Virus record (IMG/VR): IMGVR_UViG_3300032214_000609
Location: 1 to 41,921 of that record
DNA from: a virus
DNA: 41,921 nt
Direction: 5' to 3' (one strand)
In this document: one piece after another, positions 2,783-10,931 of the stretch
Numbering within the stretch: position 1 is the first letter of the stretch
How the letters are laid out: each line of letters opens with the position of its first letter
Made by a program: the position numbers and the translations under genes
The notes under the pieces: generated by a model
Database searches by the model: none
What the model saw: only the letters and a program-made list of their open reading frames with translations
Told to the model about the DNA's origin: nothing

Positions 2783-3025
2783 TTAATGTTTAAACCCAAT
2801 GTATATACTATCACTAACTGATGTTACAATCAATGTATCACCTGCTTTAGCAATCTGTATTTCTTCTGGATATGATATTGGTTTTGTTTTGATTTCATTG
2901 CTTTCATTAATTACATCATTAATGTAAACAGCAAAATAGCTAAATACATAAAGAATACATATAGTGAACACTATAATGAATACATTGTTTACTAATTGGT
3001 TTACTAATTGGTTAGTTGTTTTCAT
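2783..3025 (-). CDS. Single-span membrane protein, 80 aa
   Basis: Residues 1-10 contain an imperfect direct repeat (NQLVNQLVN), followed by a hydrophobic span (VFIIVFTICILYVFSYFAVYI, about residues 14-34). The remaining ~45 residues are polar and probably extracytoplasmic. The gene is preceded by the leader repeat AAATCCTTAATAAC with one base before the ATG. The function is unknown. Confidence 0.6.
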   Translation of the reverse strand: MKTTNQLVNQLVNNVFIIVFTICILYVFSYFAVYINDVINESNEIKTKPISYPEEIQIAKAGDTLIVTSVSDSIYIGFKH

Positions 3026-3026
3026 T

Positions 3027-3041
3027 GTTATTAAGGATTTA
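3027..3041 (-). promoter_or_regulatory. Leader repeat, copy 2
   Basis: On the minus strand this reads TAAATCCTTAATAAC, one base before the ATG of the 80-aa membrane protein at 3025. It is identical over 15 bases to copy 1 (1198-1212) and over 14 bases to copy 3 (3288-3301). Confidence 0.45.
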
Positions 3042-3044
3042 GTG

Positions 3045-3287
3045 TTATAAATTACTCTTTATGTATTCTAATACATCTTTTGATGCAAGAGCTATAAACT
3101 TTGATTGATTCATATGATCAAACATTCTATATACAGTCATTACATTGTTTTGATGGTTCTGAATACTATTTATTCTTTCAAGTTTCTCTGTAACATATCC
3201 AAACTCATTATCATATTGCAACCATATAAGACTTGCAATATTAATCATCTCGTTGAATATCTCTTCACTAGGTGTTATATTTTCCAT
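3045..3287 (-). CDS. Unknown 80-aa protein
   Basis: I start this gene at the ATG at 3287 (MENITPSEEIFNEM), because the shared leader repeat ends immediately before it. An upstream in-frame start (3317) would swallow that leader. The protein is mixed-charge and appears helical, with no membrane segment or metal-binding pattern. It is near the beginning of the leftward operon. No function can be given. Confidence 0.55.
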   Translation of the reverse strand: MENITPSEEIFNEMINIASLIWLQYDNEFGYVTEKLERINSIQNHQNNVMTVYRMFDHMNQSKFIALASKDVLEYIKSNL

Positions 3288-3301
3288 GTTATTAAGGATT
3301 T
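3288..3301 (-). promoter_or_regulatory. Leader repeat, copy 3
   Basis: On the minus strand AAATCCTTAATAAC directly abuts the ATG at 3287. It matches copies 1 and 2 over 14 of 14 bases. Confidence 0.45.
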
Positions 3302-3328
3302 GCGGCTGAAGAGCCAATTAATGTTATT

Positions 3329-3460
3329 CTATATATAGAAAGATAATAGATATAGAATAATAGATCTATCTTTTATAAGAGACTGAACTTTATAATAGTT
3401 ATTCTCTAAGACTATATCTTGTTCTATATCATTTAGTCTTTGTTCTATGTATTCTTTCAT
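3329..3460 (-). CDS. Small protein, 43 aa
   Basis: An open frame runs from the ATG at 3460 (MKEYIEQRLNDIEQDIV) to TAG at 3329. The first 30 residues are helical and charged, and the C-terminus is hydrophobic (IILYLLSFYI). The bases before the start (AGCAATAAC) resemble the end of the leader repeat seen upstream of other genes here. It would be the first gene of the leftward operon. The evidence is only the open frame and its position, so confidence is moderate. Confidence 0.4.
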   Translation of the reverse strand: MKEYIEQRLNDIEQDIVLENNYYKVQSLIKDRSIILYLLSFYI

Positions 3461-3757
3461 GTTATTGCTATATATATTTAGTTATGTTTCAATATTGTAT
3501 GTTCAATGTTTAGACCCTTTTTAGGTGGGTATGTGTACACTGCTATTCATTCACACTCAAACAATATATACATTTTGTTAGAGAATTATCAGTGAATGAT
3601 GTATTTGATTACATTATTCTCATATGGTCTCCGTAAAAACTTATGAATAATGCAATGTGATGTTTATTTAGTCTATATACATTTATAAAGAAAAAGAAAA
3701 GGTGGGATTTTATTGCCCACCCGATCTGCCACCCTCTATATATGAGAAATGCAAGGC
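3461..3757. other. Intergenic region with G-tracts, no gene
   Basis: About 300 bases hold no credible frame. They contain GGTGGGTATGT at 3524-3534, which recurs at 4281-4291, and an 8-base palindrome GTGTACAC at 3533-3540. The right end holds the terminator of the 114-aa gene (3691-3721). The promoter of the leftward operon should lie here, but I found no clean TAnnTTTG element on the minus strand. Confidence 0.4.
3691..3721 (-). terminator. Rho-independent terminator of the 114-aa gene
   Basis: On the minus strand the 6-bp stem GGTGGG/CCCACC (3716-3721 with 3701-3706) has a 9-base AT-rich loop and is followed by TTTTCTTTTTC. It sits 37 bases after the stop of the 3758-4102 gene and separates that gene from the small-gene operon. 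Confidence 0.7.
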
Positions 3758-4102
3758 TTAAAGCCCTGCATACTCACTTGGATTAACCATTCGTTGAGGC
3801 TTAAAGTTCTCAACAGTAATCGCAGCGTTAATCATTTCTTTCTCTTTGAAAGCGTTAGCTTTCGTCCAGCTAATGTAATTGTCTAAACTGTAACCTTCAT
3901 CAGTAACAGTAAGCATCACTTTACTAACATCACCTTTGTCTAAATCAACAATAAAGTCATCATCTTCATGAACTGCAAATGCTTTACTATTGTAAGCGTA
4001 AAGTCTGTAATTTTTACCTGCATAACCTTCAGTTTCGCTTTTGTAAGTTCTTACTGTGTTAGTCTTCTTGATTAACAAAATGTCTTGTCCTGTAATTTCC
4101 AT
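3758..4102 (-). CDS. Unknown 114-aa protein, probably early expressed
   Basis: The protein starts MEITGQDILLIKK and looks like a small mixed alpha/beta soluble protein. It contains an acidic cluster (VHEDDDFIVDLDKGD, about residues 44-58) and no Cys, metal or nucleotide-binding motif. It is a separate transcription unit with its own terminator downstream and a divergent promoter region upstream. Its codon use appears somewhat richer in G and C than that of the neighbouring small genes. Being alone beside the divergent region suggests strong early expression, but I recognise no family. Confidence 0.65.
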   Translation of the reverse strand: MEITGQDILLIKKTNTVRTYKSETEGYAGKNYRLYAYNSKAFAVHEDDDFIVDLDKGDVSKVMLTVTDEGYSLDNYISWTKANAFKEKEMINAAITVENFKPQRMVNPSEYAGL

Positions 4103-4148
4103 AATTTCTGTTTTTTAATGGATTAAATGGGGGGGCACCTTGCTCACC

Positions 4149-4156
4149 CAAACATA
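4149..4156 (-). promoter_or_regulatory. Possible -7 element for the leftward 114-aa gene
   Basis: On the minus strand this reads TATGTTTG, a full match to TAnnTTTG, about 47 bases before the ATG at 4102. No TTTG is found 19-21 bases upstream, so only half of the Bacteroidota promoter pattern is present. Confidence 0.35.
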
Positions 4157-4349
4157 GGTGGGGTGGTTGGTTGGAAGTACCCTACACAGCCACACACACA
4201 ACAGGTTTCCAAGTTTTGAAAAAAAAATTTGAAAAAAAATTTGGTAGATATTGAAAATATGTTATACCTTTGGCTGGGTGGGTGGGTATGTCTATGTAGA
4301 TATTTCTTTCATAATATAGCATAGGAATAAAATATTTCTTCTTAATGTA

Positions 4350-4379
4350 TTGATTATGAATATTTATTTTCTATCTTTG
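4350..4379 (+). promoter_or_regulatory. Bacteroidota-type promoter for the rightward operon
   Basis: TTG (4350-4352), a 19-base spacer and TATCTTTG (4372-4379) match the TTTG-N19-TAnnTTTG consensus closely. Transcription would start near 4386, giving a leader of about 18 bases before the ATG at 4404. Confidence 0.65.
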
Positions 4380-4403
4380 TCCATAGAATGTCAAAACTAA
4401 ATT

Positions 4404-4808
4404 ATGGAACCAACTAAGATTATAGTACAAAGACTAAAGAAGAATGTAGATAATGACATGGAATTAGCCATGAAATACTATTCTATTCTATCTGTTATAA
4501 ATTCTCTCAATCTAACTGAAAGAGAAATACAACTCATATCTTTTACAGCTATTAAGGGAAACATTACATATGCTAATGTGAGAGAGGAGTTTTGTAAAAC
4601 ATACAATAGTACATCTCCTTCTATTAATAACATCATCTCCAAACTGAAAAGAATAGGTATATTTATTAAGGAGAATGGTAAGGTGAAGGTAAATCCTGTT
4701 ATAGTGATTGATTTTAGTAAAGATTTAACGTTAGATATAAAACTAGTACATGGAGAAACCAATATCAATGTCAGTGAAGGAGTGGATCATCAAGAAGATG
4801 TCCATTAG
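4404..4808 (+). CDS. Winged-helix-like DNA-binding protein
   Basis: This 134-aa protein has a central region that reads like a winged helix-turn-helix. A helix (LTEREIQLISFTAI, about residues 36-49) and a possible second one precede a Ser-rich turn and recognition helix (TSPSINNIISKLKRIGIF, about 70-87), followed by a short wing (KENGKVKVNP). Such folds bind DNA in MarR-like regulators and in phage replication or packaging factors. It is the first gene of the rightward operon and overlaps the IHF-like gene by 59 bases, so the two are probably coupled. It could be a regulator or a packaging accessory; the fold is inferred by eye. Confidence 0.55.
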   Translation: MEPTKIIVQRLKKNVDNDMELAMKYYSILSVINSLNLTEREIQLISFTAIKGNITYANVREEFCKTYNSTSPSINNIISKLKRIGIFIKENGKVKVNPVIVIDFSKDLTLDIKLVHGETNINVSEGVDHQEDVH

Positions 4809-5112
4809 TATGGTGATATCAGAGAAGATTATTGATTCTGTTGTTATACATCAGTTTGATTCAGCTAATGATGCTCTTAATGTTAATAAAAGTGTGGAGA
4901 TTTCTGGATTTGGTAAGTTCTATTTCAACCAGAAGAAAGCTCTTGCACAATACAACAAGTTGTTAAAGATAAAGCAATCATACGAGACATCTCTAGCTGA
5001 CGAAAACATTACATATACAAAAAGGAATGCTCTTCTGCTTAAGATGCAGATTGTAGACTCAAGTATAAAAACACTAAAACCAAAAATAGATGAGCCTGGG
5101 ACAAATTTATGA
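4750..5112 (+). CDS. IHF/HU-like DNA-binding protein
   Basis: The 120-aa product carries VEISGFGKFYFN (about residues 47-58), matching the G-F-G-x-F turn of the IHF/HU family that precedes the DNA-binding arms. It then departs from bacterial IHF with a long, charged, helical C-terminus. One IHF-like subunit next to the terminase is a known feature of crAss-like phages, where it may bend DNA for packaging or organise the genome. I list the first ATG (4750), but starts at 4768 (MSVKEW) or 4798 would reduce the unusually long overlap with the upstream gene. It overlaps the next gene by 23 bases. Confidence 0.7.
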   Translation: MEKPISMSVKEWIIKKMSISMVISEKIIDSVVIHQFDSANDALNVNKSVEISGFGKFYFNQKKALAQYNKLLKIKQSYETSLADENITYTKRNALLLKMQIVDSSIKTLKPKIDEPGTNL

Positions 5113-5907: not shown

Positions 5908-6240
5908 ATGGCAATAAAAAAAACTACATATATAAACACAGAACTTGATTGGGCTGAGGAACAGTTATCAAGCTGGAAACAATACGTTGATGCAAATCCT
6001 TTACATGAGTTAGAGGATAGAATCAAATGGAAAGAAACTAAAGCTGGTGGTGCTATGCCTATGGTGATTGCATCTATTGAAGCTCAGGGGAAGTTTGTCC
6101 AAGAGACAATGAAAAACTACTTAGCTCTATTAGAGCAAGTGGAAAAACTACGTGAGAAAGAAGAAGCAAAGGTGGTGCCTGTAAGAGGTGGTGTTGAACT
6201 AGGAAGTATGGCAGAGGATTTCTTAAAGGGTAGAAAATAA
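5908..6240 (+). CDS. Candidate terminase small subunit (position only)
   Basis: This 110-aa protein is mainly helical, with a probable coiled coil from about residue 60 to 92 (MVIASIEAQGKFVQETMKNYLALLEQVEKLREKEE). Its stop overlaps the TerL start (TAATG), so the two are translated together. Small helical, oligomerising proteins just before TerL are often the small terminase subunit that recognises the packaging site. There is no clear helix-turn-helix at the N-terminus, and crAss-like TerS proteins are poorly defined. The assignment is by location and coiled coil alone. Confidence 0.45.
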   Translation: MAIKKTTYINTELDWAEEQLSSWKQYVDANPLHELEDRIKWKETKAGGAMPMVIASIEAQGKFVQETMKNYLALLEQVEKLREKEEAKVVPVRGGVELGSMAEDFLKGRK

Positions 6241-8267
6241 TGGATGGATTACAAAGCATTGACTATAAAGACTGGTTCATCAATCAGAAAAGAGTTCCTC
6301 AAAAAGACTCAGAGGAATACAGAGAGTTTTATGCTTTTCATAAACAACTGTGTATTGATGGTTGTACAATGGGAGGAGTTTATATTAACCCTTTTCTATA
6401 TTGGCATTTAAACTTCTGGAATACAGAGGTGGATGTTATCGATGACAGAGGAAGAATATCACAGAAATATGCCAATCCTTATCTACGTGATAATGAGTGG
6501 ATAATCACAAACGAAATAGATAGAGCACATAACGAAAAGAAAGGCCTAGTAATATTAGGCATTCGTCGTTTAGCTAAGTCAGTAATTGAGAGCTCTTACA
6601 TAGGTCATGGGGCCACGTTCGATGAGAACTCCCAGAACATTATTGCAGGACTGAATGCTCCCGATATAAAGCTTATCACAGATAAGATTGACAAAGGATT
6701 AAACTTCTTACCAGAAGCCTGGAGATGGCAGAGGGTAGAAGACAATTGGAAAAACCAAGTTACATTAGGGATCAAGACAAAAGCAGGAGAGAGAATCCCC
6801 TTTTCTCAGATCCTTATTCGTAACTTAGATGGTGGTAACAATGAAGAGGCTATTGCAGGTACAAAACCTAGAAGGCTTATTATTGATGAGATAGGTAAGG
6901 GTAACTTCTTACGTGGATTACAAGCTGCTACACCAGGATTCACTACACCATTTGGTTGGGGATGTTCGCCTATACTTACAGGTACAGGTGGAGATATGCA
7001 AAACTTCATGGACGCAAAGAGTCTTATGTTTGATGTGGCCAATTTCAACTTCTTAGAATACAATAGTGCTAAGGATGATCAAAGAATCCATGGACTATTT
7101 ATTTCTCATAAGTATAGAATGGAAGCTAAAGAAGATTCTACATTAGGTGCGTTCTTAGAACAACCAGCAGATTCAGAATTACATAATGTAAAAATGTTAG
7201 TCTCTAATTTAGAGATAGCAGATAAGATTACAAATGAAAACCTTGATAGATTAAAGAAAGCTGGTGATAGACTTGCTTATTTAAAAGAGAAGATGTATTA
7301 TCCACAAGAAGTGGATGACATATTCTTGAACGAGGATACAAATATATTTGATATTGAAGCAGCTAAACGTCAGAAATCCAGACTGTTAGCACAAGAGAGA
7401 ACAGGAACACCTGTTGTTTTATATGATGATGGAGATGGTGTGAAACATGAATTCACAGATAAGTTACCAATATCAAACTTCCCTCTTAATAATAGTGACA
7501 ATAAAGAAGCTCCTGTAGTGATATATGAGTTTCCTATATCAGATCCTCCATATGGATTGTATGTAGCAGGGATTGACCCTTATAGACAAGGAAAGTCTGC
7601 ATATTCAAGTTCGCTTGGATCTGTATACATATATAAACGTATGCATGCTATATCAGGAGAGAAGTATCAAGACATGTTTGTGGCCAGCTATTGTGCTAGA
7701 CCAGACAAGAAAGAAACATGGGAAGAACAAGCTAGATATTTAATTAAGTATTACAATGCTAGAGCTCTATGTGAGAATGACGAGATATCATTCATTGACT
7801 ACATGATAGCTAAAGGAGATGCTCATTACTTAGAGAAACAACCAGACTGGTTAAAAGAAATAGTTCCTAACACCACTGTTAGAAGAGATTATGGAATACA
7901 TAGATCTTCTGAGAAAATACGAGACTTCTTACATGGATGTCTTAAGAAATATTCAGAAGAAGTGGTACATACAGAGAAGGATGAGGATGGAAACATCAAG
8001 TCTGAAATAAAAGGTATGGCTAAAATATTTGATCCTGTTCTATTAGAGGAGATGATACAATATAATGAATCAGGCAACTTTGACCGTATCATTGCTGCAG
8101 AGCTTGCAATAGCTTTGGCAATGAAACTAGATCCCATTATGGGAAAAATAGGAGGAGAGGAAGATGGAAGAATGAAATCAATGTTCACTAAGAACAAAAA
8201 AAATACTCTGTTTACAGAAAGCAGATCAATGTTTAACACACCAAAGAAAAATAAATTGTTTAGATAA
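6240..8267 (+). CDS. terL: Terminase large subunit
   Basis: This 675-aa protein is the DNA-packaging motor ATPase and nuclease. The deviant Walker A is GIRRLAKS at about residues 107-114, with Arg in place of the usual Gly-rich loop as in other large terminases. Walker B with the catalytic Glu is RLIIDEIG at about 211-218. The C-terminal RNase H-like nuclease shows its three acidic positions: AGIDPYRQGK near 445, LCENDEISF near 512 and NFDRIIAAEL near 615. The length suits crAss-like TerL. Start and stop each share a base with the neighbouring genes, linking it to the candidate small subunit and portal. All key residues appear intact. Confidence 0.93.
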   Translation: MDGLQSIDYKDWFINQKRVPQKDSEEYREFYAFHKQLCIDGCTMGGVYINPFLYWHLNFWNTEVDVIDDRGRISQKYANPYLRDNEWIITNEIDRAHNEKKGLVILGIRRLAKSVIESSYIGHGATFDENSQNIIAGLNAPDIKLITDKIDKGLNFLPEAWRWQRVEDNWKNQVTLGIKTKAGERIPFSQILIRNLDGGNNEEAIAGTKPRRLIIDEIGKGNFLRGLQAATPGFTTPFGWGCSPILTGTGGDMQNFMDAKSLMFDVANFNFLEYNSAKDDQRIHGLFISHKYRMEAKEDSTLGAFLEQPADSELHNVKMLVSNLEIADKITNENLDRLKKAGDRLAYLKEKMYYPQEVDDIFLNEDTNIFDIEAAKRQKSRLLAQERTGTPVVLYDDGDGVKHEFTDKLPISNFPLNNSDNKEAPVVIYEFPISDPPYGLYVAGIDPYRQGKSAYSSSLGSVYIYKRMHAISGEKYQDMFVASYCARPDKKETWEEQARYLIKYYNARALCENDEISFIDYMIAKGDAHYLEKQPDWLKEIVPNTTVRRDYGIHRSSEKIRDFLHGCLKKYSEEVVHTEKDEDGNIKSEIKGMAKIFDPVLLEEMIQYNESGNFDRIIAAELAIALAMKLDPIMGKIGGEEDGRMKSMFTKNKKNTLFTESRSMFNTPKKNKLFR

Positions 8268-10877: not shown

Positions 10878-10931
10878 AAAAACATTAATGCTATATTATC
10901 TAGAAAATTGGATTAGTTTGATTCATAACCC

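Follow-up and report, generated by a model that had tools for sequence, protein, structure and literature searches.

Introduction

What kind of element lies where the leftward and rightward genes of a phage genome part, and why are tracts of G and of A crowded there around a single gene? This question is raised by a 41,921-base virus record (IMGVR_UViG_3300032214_000609; this whole stretch is hereafter called the window), in which positions 3700-4400 split a leftward block carrying replication genes from a rightward late block that encodes the terminase, portal and capsid proteins. An initial annotation of the sequence had suggested that this composition could be an origin of replication, a regulator-binding array or a G-quadruplex, an interpretation that the comparisons presented here support in part. 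To our knowledge, crAss-like phages have hardly been mapped with respect to their replication origins and late-gene switches, and in the literature searched, of which few subscription papers formed part, neither a G-block promoter nor a late-promoter box was found for these phages. In this work, we describe the region as what is rather probably the early/late control region of a crAss-like phage, constituted by a promoter (P1) whose predicted start lies in a G-block, a second promoter (P2) that may be activated through a box, and a left-hand cluster that ends a swapped gene cassette. That it is a control region containing P1 and P2 we regard as very likely, and that the G-block has been selected as a former of quadruplexes or R-loops as about an even chance.

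Materials and methods

Relatives of the window were found in IMG/VR through the terminase large subunit (TerL; 6240..8267, plus strand; phrog_6681, E 5.8e-86), and the best 80 of 509 were kept as the first set. From these, 76 loci with the downstream gene p134 (window included), minus 2 that were too short and 9 that were repeats over 200 nt, gave 65 distinct loci for the conservation counts; L003 was left out as the same contig as L044. A second set was found via p134 (best 80 of 310), from which 36 new loci were examined after removal of loci shared with the first set and of loci with less than 230 nt upstream, near-identical contigs being included. Three relatives (G004, G009 and G011; 112.8-114.4 kb), each closed by an end overlap of 107-127 nt, were read whole.

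Results

A crAss-like phage as the source of the window

The window displays the terminase, portal and capsid layout of crAss-like phages, and these three proteins, which match phrog_6681, 6547 and 11589, respectively, are related to those of that group; the window is a fragment of such a phage. Its TerL found its best match in the phage collection in Leptolyngbya phage Lbo-JY46 (40%), followed by Cellulophaga phages phi4:1 and phi17:2 (32%), and matched that of the Crassvirales record cr10_1 at 27%, while a megablast of the first 20 kb of the window against the same collection returned 0 matches. Genes for a DnaB-type helicase (50.7 bits against a cut-off of 27) and for RecA (286.6 bits) are located in the leftward block of G009, together with a 333-aa frame with primase-type matches under the curated cut-offs and a 653-aa frame for which the Pfam search gave no match. 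In the late block of this relative, at a place that the window stops short of, frames of 4564 and 1611 aa were searched in three pieces for a giant virion RNA polymerase, with no Pfam match at E 0.01. At gathering scores, Rfam identified a tRNA and nothing else over the window.

The G-tract clusters are several different things

The motif GGTGGG, which had been reported to occur at least five times around the solitary gene, was found at 3524, 3701, 3716 (minus strand), 4157, 4277 and 4281, so that 6 of its 8 matches in the window fall within 3524-4286. The total of 8 is unremarkable (mean of 4.14 in shuffled sequences, 8 of 100 shuffles reaching 8); the clustering is non-random, as random placement of 8 motifs brought 6 of them together in 763 bases in 0 of 200,000 trials. 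The 11-base exact repeat and the neighboring A tracts were also confirmed, GGTGGGTATGT being identical at 3524 and 4281, with A9 at 4219-4227 and A8 at 4232-4239. Nevertheless, GGTGGGTATGT is not a repeat family: among its 29 occurrences in the collected loci (duplicates included), 26 lie at the right-hand element, and the other 3 are the window's own copy at 3524 and single copies in two relatives. The copy at 3524 (minus strand) sits in another block, CAGTGTACACATACCCACC, whose counterparts in 26 loci inspected by eye lack the full CATACCCACC, and the 3524/4281 pair looks like a coincidence of sequence.

The clusters are several different things rather than a single array. The copies at 4277 and 4281 belong to one G-block, that at 4157 to the leader of the leftward gene, those at 3701 and 3716 to the arms of a hairpin, and that at 3524 stands alone. 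Of the earlier interpretation, a regulator site is supported in the form of the box described below, which precedes P2 by about 50 nt, and not in that of the GGTGGG copies.

The right cluster is a predicted Bacteroidota-type promoter with a G-rich start

From its sequence, the right cluster is predicted to be a Bacteroidota-type promoter, P1. After a conserved CACACACACAA..GG block which opens the right half of the intergenic element (4191..4218), it reads rightward as A9, A8, TTTG, 21 nt, TACCTTTG and the G-block GGCTGGGTGGGTGGG. The A9 and A8 tracts (4219..4239, plus strand) resemble an UP element and lie directly upstream of the -33 element TTTG (4240..4243, plus strand), itself 21 nt before the -7 element TACCTTTG (4265..4272, plus strand), which fits TAHHTTTG. 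The -7 consensus described for Flavobacterium johnsoniae is TAHHTTTG, with transcription starting 4-5 nt downstream (PMC6847099); both elements, -33 TTTG and -7 TAHHTTTG, and their spacing are common to P1 and to the Bacteroidota primary-sigma promoter described there. From this start distance, the P1 RNA is expected to begin at 4277-4278, inside the G-block (4272..4286, plus strand).

The layout is conserved. Among distinct loci of the first set, the -7 element TAHHTTTG was found in 61/65, TTTG lay 18-21 nt before it in 54/63 (exactly 21 nt in 45), and in 60/63 the longest A run in the interval examined upstream of P1 was at least 5. Conservation of the repeats in relatives had been proposed as a check; the G-block was present in 65/65 distinct loci and in 32/36 loci of the second set, where the stretch read from L167, L182 and L183 contains no block and the contig of L166 is cut short; with these 4 of 36 loci without it, the block is not indispensable.

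Four GG tracts occur in the G-block of 64 of the 65 distinct loci, while its sequence varies from GGCTGGGTGGGTGGG to GGGGCGGTGGTTGGG to GGGGGGGATAAAGGGGGGG (25 different 19-base versions in 74 loci; G4Hunter scores of 1.42-2.95). A stricter G count misses L064, L075, L081, L082, L083 and L085, and a looser count recovers all six. Most blocks allow just two G layers, and four GGG tracts occur only in two types with GGGGGGG (3/74 loci). The retention of four tracts despite sequence change points to a start region capable of forming a quadruplex or an R-loop; the quadruplex that had been suggested thus stands as a capability, its folding being a prediction.

The combination is also nearly unique within the genomes read. 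TAHHTTTG occurs at 104, 93, 103 and 34 sites in G004, G009, G011 and the window, respectively, and is followed by four GG tracts at 1, 1, 2 and 1 of them, so that, unlike P1, the other TAHHTTTG sites of these genomes are devoid of a G-block, with one exception in G011. In the viral collection, the pattern TANNTTTGGNGGGTGGGTGGG matched 79 stretches, 73 of which have p134 just downstream in sense; the other six include 3 that are cut off but alike and 3 that share another context. In 84,980 prokaryote species genomes it matched 3 stretches (two archaeal and one from Denitrificimonas). Four of the five outgroup records (L104, L105, L106 and L108) carry a host-type -7-like site with no such G-block, and the G runs of the fifth (L107) differ in kind.

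A predicted second promoter is preceded by a phased box

Downstream of P1, the late operon is preceded by P2, with the -7 element TATCTTTG (4372..4379, plus strand). TAHHTTTG lies at most 70 nt from the p134 start in 60/63 distinct loci, as compared with 3% of 6000 random 70-nt stretches from three relatives. The box ATAATATAGC, the reverse of GCTATATTAT, lies 51 nt before P2 (4311..4320, plus strand), and its spacing falls in two classes: in the 65 distinct loci, 40-43 nt in 21, 50-53 nt in 31 and 44-49 nt in none, the remaining 13 being 11 without an exact box and 2 without a -7 match after it. Placed on a tree of 52 loci, these spacing classes require about 4 changes (mean of 16.4 with shuffled labels), so that, the loci being related, the classes do not represent 52 independent events.

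In the forward orientation, the box matched 14 times in the three genomes and the window. Five of these, in the three genomes, lie exactly 45 nt from a strict -7, all five being late-strand sites outside the portal-scaffold gap; four lie 55 nt from a relaxed -7 (TAHHTTTR) in that gap; and five are without a -7, four of them corresponding to the element's own box read backwards and one lying elsewhere. The copy of the window in the portal-scaffold gap, GCTATATTAT (10890..10899, plus strand), is found 55 nt before TACTTTTA, a relaxed -7. Across the first set, 54 of 58 distinct forward box contexts are located 4.5-5.0 kb after the TerL start, and the relaxed -7 follows at 55 nt in 52 of the 58, at 56 nt in one and not at all in 5. 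With shuffled boxes as control, a strict -7 was found at 44-46 nt in 2/932 cases and a relaxed -7 at 54-56 nt in 6/932. The differences between 45 and 55 nt, and between 41 and 51 nt, amount to one helix turn, as expected for an activator facing the polymerase.

Phage activators of the T4 MotA type bind sites upstream of host-type promoters. As in that type, a short box stands here at a fixed spacing before the promoter; unlike it, the box lies 40-55 nt upstream and occurs in both orientations. From its gene position, p134 is a candidate activator of P2. This first gene of the late block (4404..4808, plus strand) encodes a protein modeled as a winged-helix DNA-binding protein (AlphaFold2 mean pLDDT 79), and a fold search with the model gave 977 matches, weak and, among the matches listed, mostly to winged-helix regulators, none of the 977 having an E value up to 0.001. 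The gene p120 (4750..5112, plus strand) encodes an HU-like protein (Bac_DNA_binding; 27.1 bits, cut-off 22.4). By eye, a small ORF was seen between the G-block and p134 in L005, L065, L078, L082, L083 and L085, ending at ATAATATAGC in some of them; in the group of the window this ORF is gone and the ATAATATAGC box remains.

The solitary gene is a swapped cassette

The gene between the clusters is, as had been noted, a single leftward gene at a strand switch (3758-4102, minus strand; 114 aa). It had also been described as bounded by terminators, which holds on one side, by eye: a terminator-like hairpin, GGTGGG-9 nt-CCCACC followed by the T-run TTTTCTTTTT (3691..3721, minus strand), was seen only 3' of the gene, which it ends, and a consensus terminator scan of 2800-5000 listed none.

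By blastp, the first leftward genes of the loci form groups of 36, 12 (including the window) and 9, plus several small ones; the automatic choice of this gene was wrong for some loci, which yielded short spurious frames (e.g., L007, L008, L012 and L039). The left half of the intergenic element (4127..4180), which contains G/C boxes and the leader of this gene, varies with the cassette family. Across 40 loci belonging to the three main groups, its residual identity is higher by 0.108 for loci of the same gene group, a value reached in 0 of 2000 permutations, in which labels are shuffled freely and relatedness is handled by regression on p134 identity only. Its correlation with the right arm is r 0.21 (40 loci); for the right half, r is 0.77 and the gene-group residual +0.010, reached in 166 of 2000 permutations. 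The two halves have different histories, which makes the element mosaic, its junction lying near 4180-4191. The sequence comparison thus identifies the solitary gene as a swapped cassette with which the intergenic left half travels. When nine of the leftward frames in the window were compared, leaving out that at 467-877, each was found in 2 to 18 of 36 relatives. The whole left arm is thus plastic, and the swapping does not by itself point to a special hotspot.

The 114-aa protein is predicted to fold as a small barrel bearing a helix at its C terminus (mean pLDDT 82), OB-like at a weak level: Foldseek gave no match at E 0.001, and a second fold comparison gave a best Z of 4.6 over 73-74 residues (rmsd 3.7) with mixed OB-fold proteins. 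Binding of single-stranded DNA is our guess from this model. Five examples from the cassette gene families had no Pfam or PHROG match under E 0.09. For the RNA of the left half, neither single folds nor the alignment fold revealed a common fold, the mean z against mononucleotide shuffles being -1.6 for the plus strand, which is not the leader strand, and -0.7 for the minus strand. Of seven left-half patterns scanned in the window and the three whole genomes, the longer ones are confined to the element or to isolated other places, and the short GTGGGG recurs. A leftward host-type promoter in the left half was considered and rejected, as TATGTTTG suits only the window and part of its family.

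The left G cluster mirrors the right one

Just 3' of the cassette gene lies the left G element, TATATAGA-GGGTGG-6 nt-GGGTGGG (3716..3743, minus strand), which also reads as TATATA..GGGTGG..GGGTGGG on the minus strand. It reads outward, mirroring the right G-block on the opposite strand, and the hairpin, which is kept in L044, shares its first arm with it. A like element after the first leftward gene was found with both G parts in 32 of 63 distinct loci, a count lowered by wrong gene choice, with the first part only in 5, and not in 26, several of which have a doubtful first-gene call. The next leftward transcript may begin at this left G cluster.

Further blocks recur on this side. The sequence ATTAAGGATTT (minus strand: AAATCCTTAAT) is repeated before leftward start codons (1190-1220, 3019-3040 and 3280-3301 in the window). 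In the stretch that separates the cassette from the next leftward gene (about 3480-3640 in the window), AAACTTTT..ACGAGGGAGAA..AAACTTTT and CAGTGTACACAT.CCAC are common to several relatives, as is TATATAGCATTATG at the start of that gene.

GC skew at the element

Cumulative GC skew had been proposed as a check for an origin. In all three circular relatives the minimum was found at the element (G004, G009) or about 0.3 kb off (G011), and the maximum 72-76 kb away, at a convergent switch. Neither a minimum far from the element nor a lack of conservation, the two outcomes named at the outset as contrary to the idea, was therefore observed. Gene strand switches, as it happens, at both the minimum and the maximum. 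In G011, three head-on ORFs, one of which is a clear gene of 695 aa (glycosyltransferase-like, by eye), have a sense GC3 skew of +0.160, as compared with +0.125 for co-directional genes of the same arm. The head-on ORFs of G004 and G009 go in the opposite direction, with a negative GC3 skew of -0.073 to -0.248 (each group comprising 2-3 ORFs with 325-387 sites), and were taken for spurious frames. Since skew follows the gene strand in G011, an extremum is expected at a strand switch without an origin, and the skew test cannot show one; on balance, the skew reflects transcription and does not decide the question of the origin.

Discussion

According to the reading we favor, two tandem host-type promoters, of the Bacteroidota sigma type, would drive transcription rightward into the terminase and virion genes. 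At P1, the A tracts would serve as the upstream element and the RNA would start inside the G-block; on firing, the nascent G-rich RNA could pair with the template strand, which is rich in C, and the G-rich non-template strand thus displaced could form a two- or three-layered quadruplex that would hold an R-loop at the start site, thereby setting or delaying late transcription. P2, in turn, would be turned on when an activator encoded by the phage binds the box on a fixed helix face, and the left G cluster would mark the end of the swapped leftward cassette (gene, leader and hairpin). In phiCrAss001, the late genes are thought to depend on the host RNA polymerase (PMC8375218), and its early, middle and late modules follow gene orientation, which is the same arrangement as proposed here; the available part of that report does not mention a G-block, and the two phages were compared by description.

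In a replication origin, transcription from P1 through the G-block would instead yield an R-loop that primes replication, the A tracts acting as the unwinding region. We consider this unlikely: the position of the skew extremes, the strict pattern being single in each of the 10 records, out of 14, in which it is found and the DnaB-type helicase and RecA genes of the G009 leftward block all favor it, but skew tracks the gene strand in G011, the left half of the region is exchanged along with the cassette gene, L167, L182 and L183 dispense with the G-block, and no initiator-type repeats were established. More doubtful still is a start-site quadruplex acting as a genome switch, in which the P1 R-loop would both gate late transcription and prime replication (or direct cassette exchange); if true, a single element would serve a crAss-like phage as late promoter and as origin at once. 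A run of G at a promoter start may also slip, as it does in the pyrimidine operons of other bacteria, and the predicted P1 start does fall in GGG. The G-run might then merely make the start sensitive to GTP or prone to slippage, without a quadruplex, which we judge as unlikely as an origin, as a single G run would suffice for this and four tracts over about 15-20 nt are kept in 64 of 65 loci as the sequence changes. The G-run could also act as a protein site.

The mosaic junction inside the intergenic region brings to mind the pilE locus of Neisseria gonorrhoeae, where a chromosomal G4 with a small-RNA promoter is needed for antigenic variation (PMC3547852). By analogy, a transcription-driven quadruplex would promote the exchange of the adjoining cassette. 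According to that report, the RNA starts inside the G4 sequence; here, a start predicted from promoter spacing falls in a G4-forming sequence about 170 bp from the variable gene. Unlike the pilE G4, however, the element is a predicted phage late promoter with mostly two-layer tracts, and the left arm is plastic throughout, so that a recombination site of this kind appears improbable. We give even less weight to a packaging start (pac/cos) beside the terminase genes, bound by the locally encoded HU-like and winged-helix proteins. Such a site would suit the head of a terminase operon with its small DNA-binding proteins, but the conserved parts are promoter elements at promoter spacing, and with the end overlaps that close the three relatives the termini are not mappable. 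The control region with P1 and P2, which we prefer to these alternatives, offers a precise target of about 120 bases that is single in the genomes read, and the phased box would predict part of the phage late regulon from sequence alone.

Other features of the relatives

L104, the best named-phage match by TerL, is recorded from a cyanobacterium (Leptolyngbya), yet the Bacteroidota-type TATCTTTG precedes its terminase-side genes. Upstream of the rightward genes leading to the terminase, Flavobacterium phage FpV4 (L108, 1-560) displays repeated GTGAGGGGTTTG-like motifs, and cr10_1 (L107, 2700-3150) a G-rich stretch. A tmRNA scan found none in the window; among ten loci scanned, tmRNA genes were identified in the leftward arm of two relatives, at 14088-14411 of L099 and 1084-1473 of L026 (both on the minus strand), with the tags ANAQIEANMNKVFSLLGEEVAVAA and VDQVNANMSKVFSLINSNVEELEMAA, respectively.
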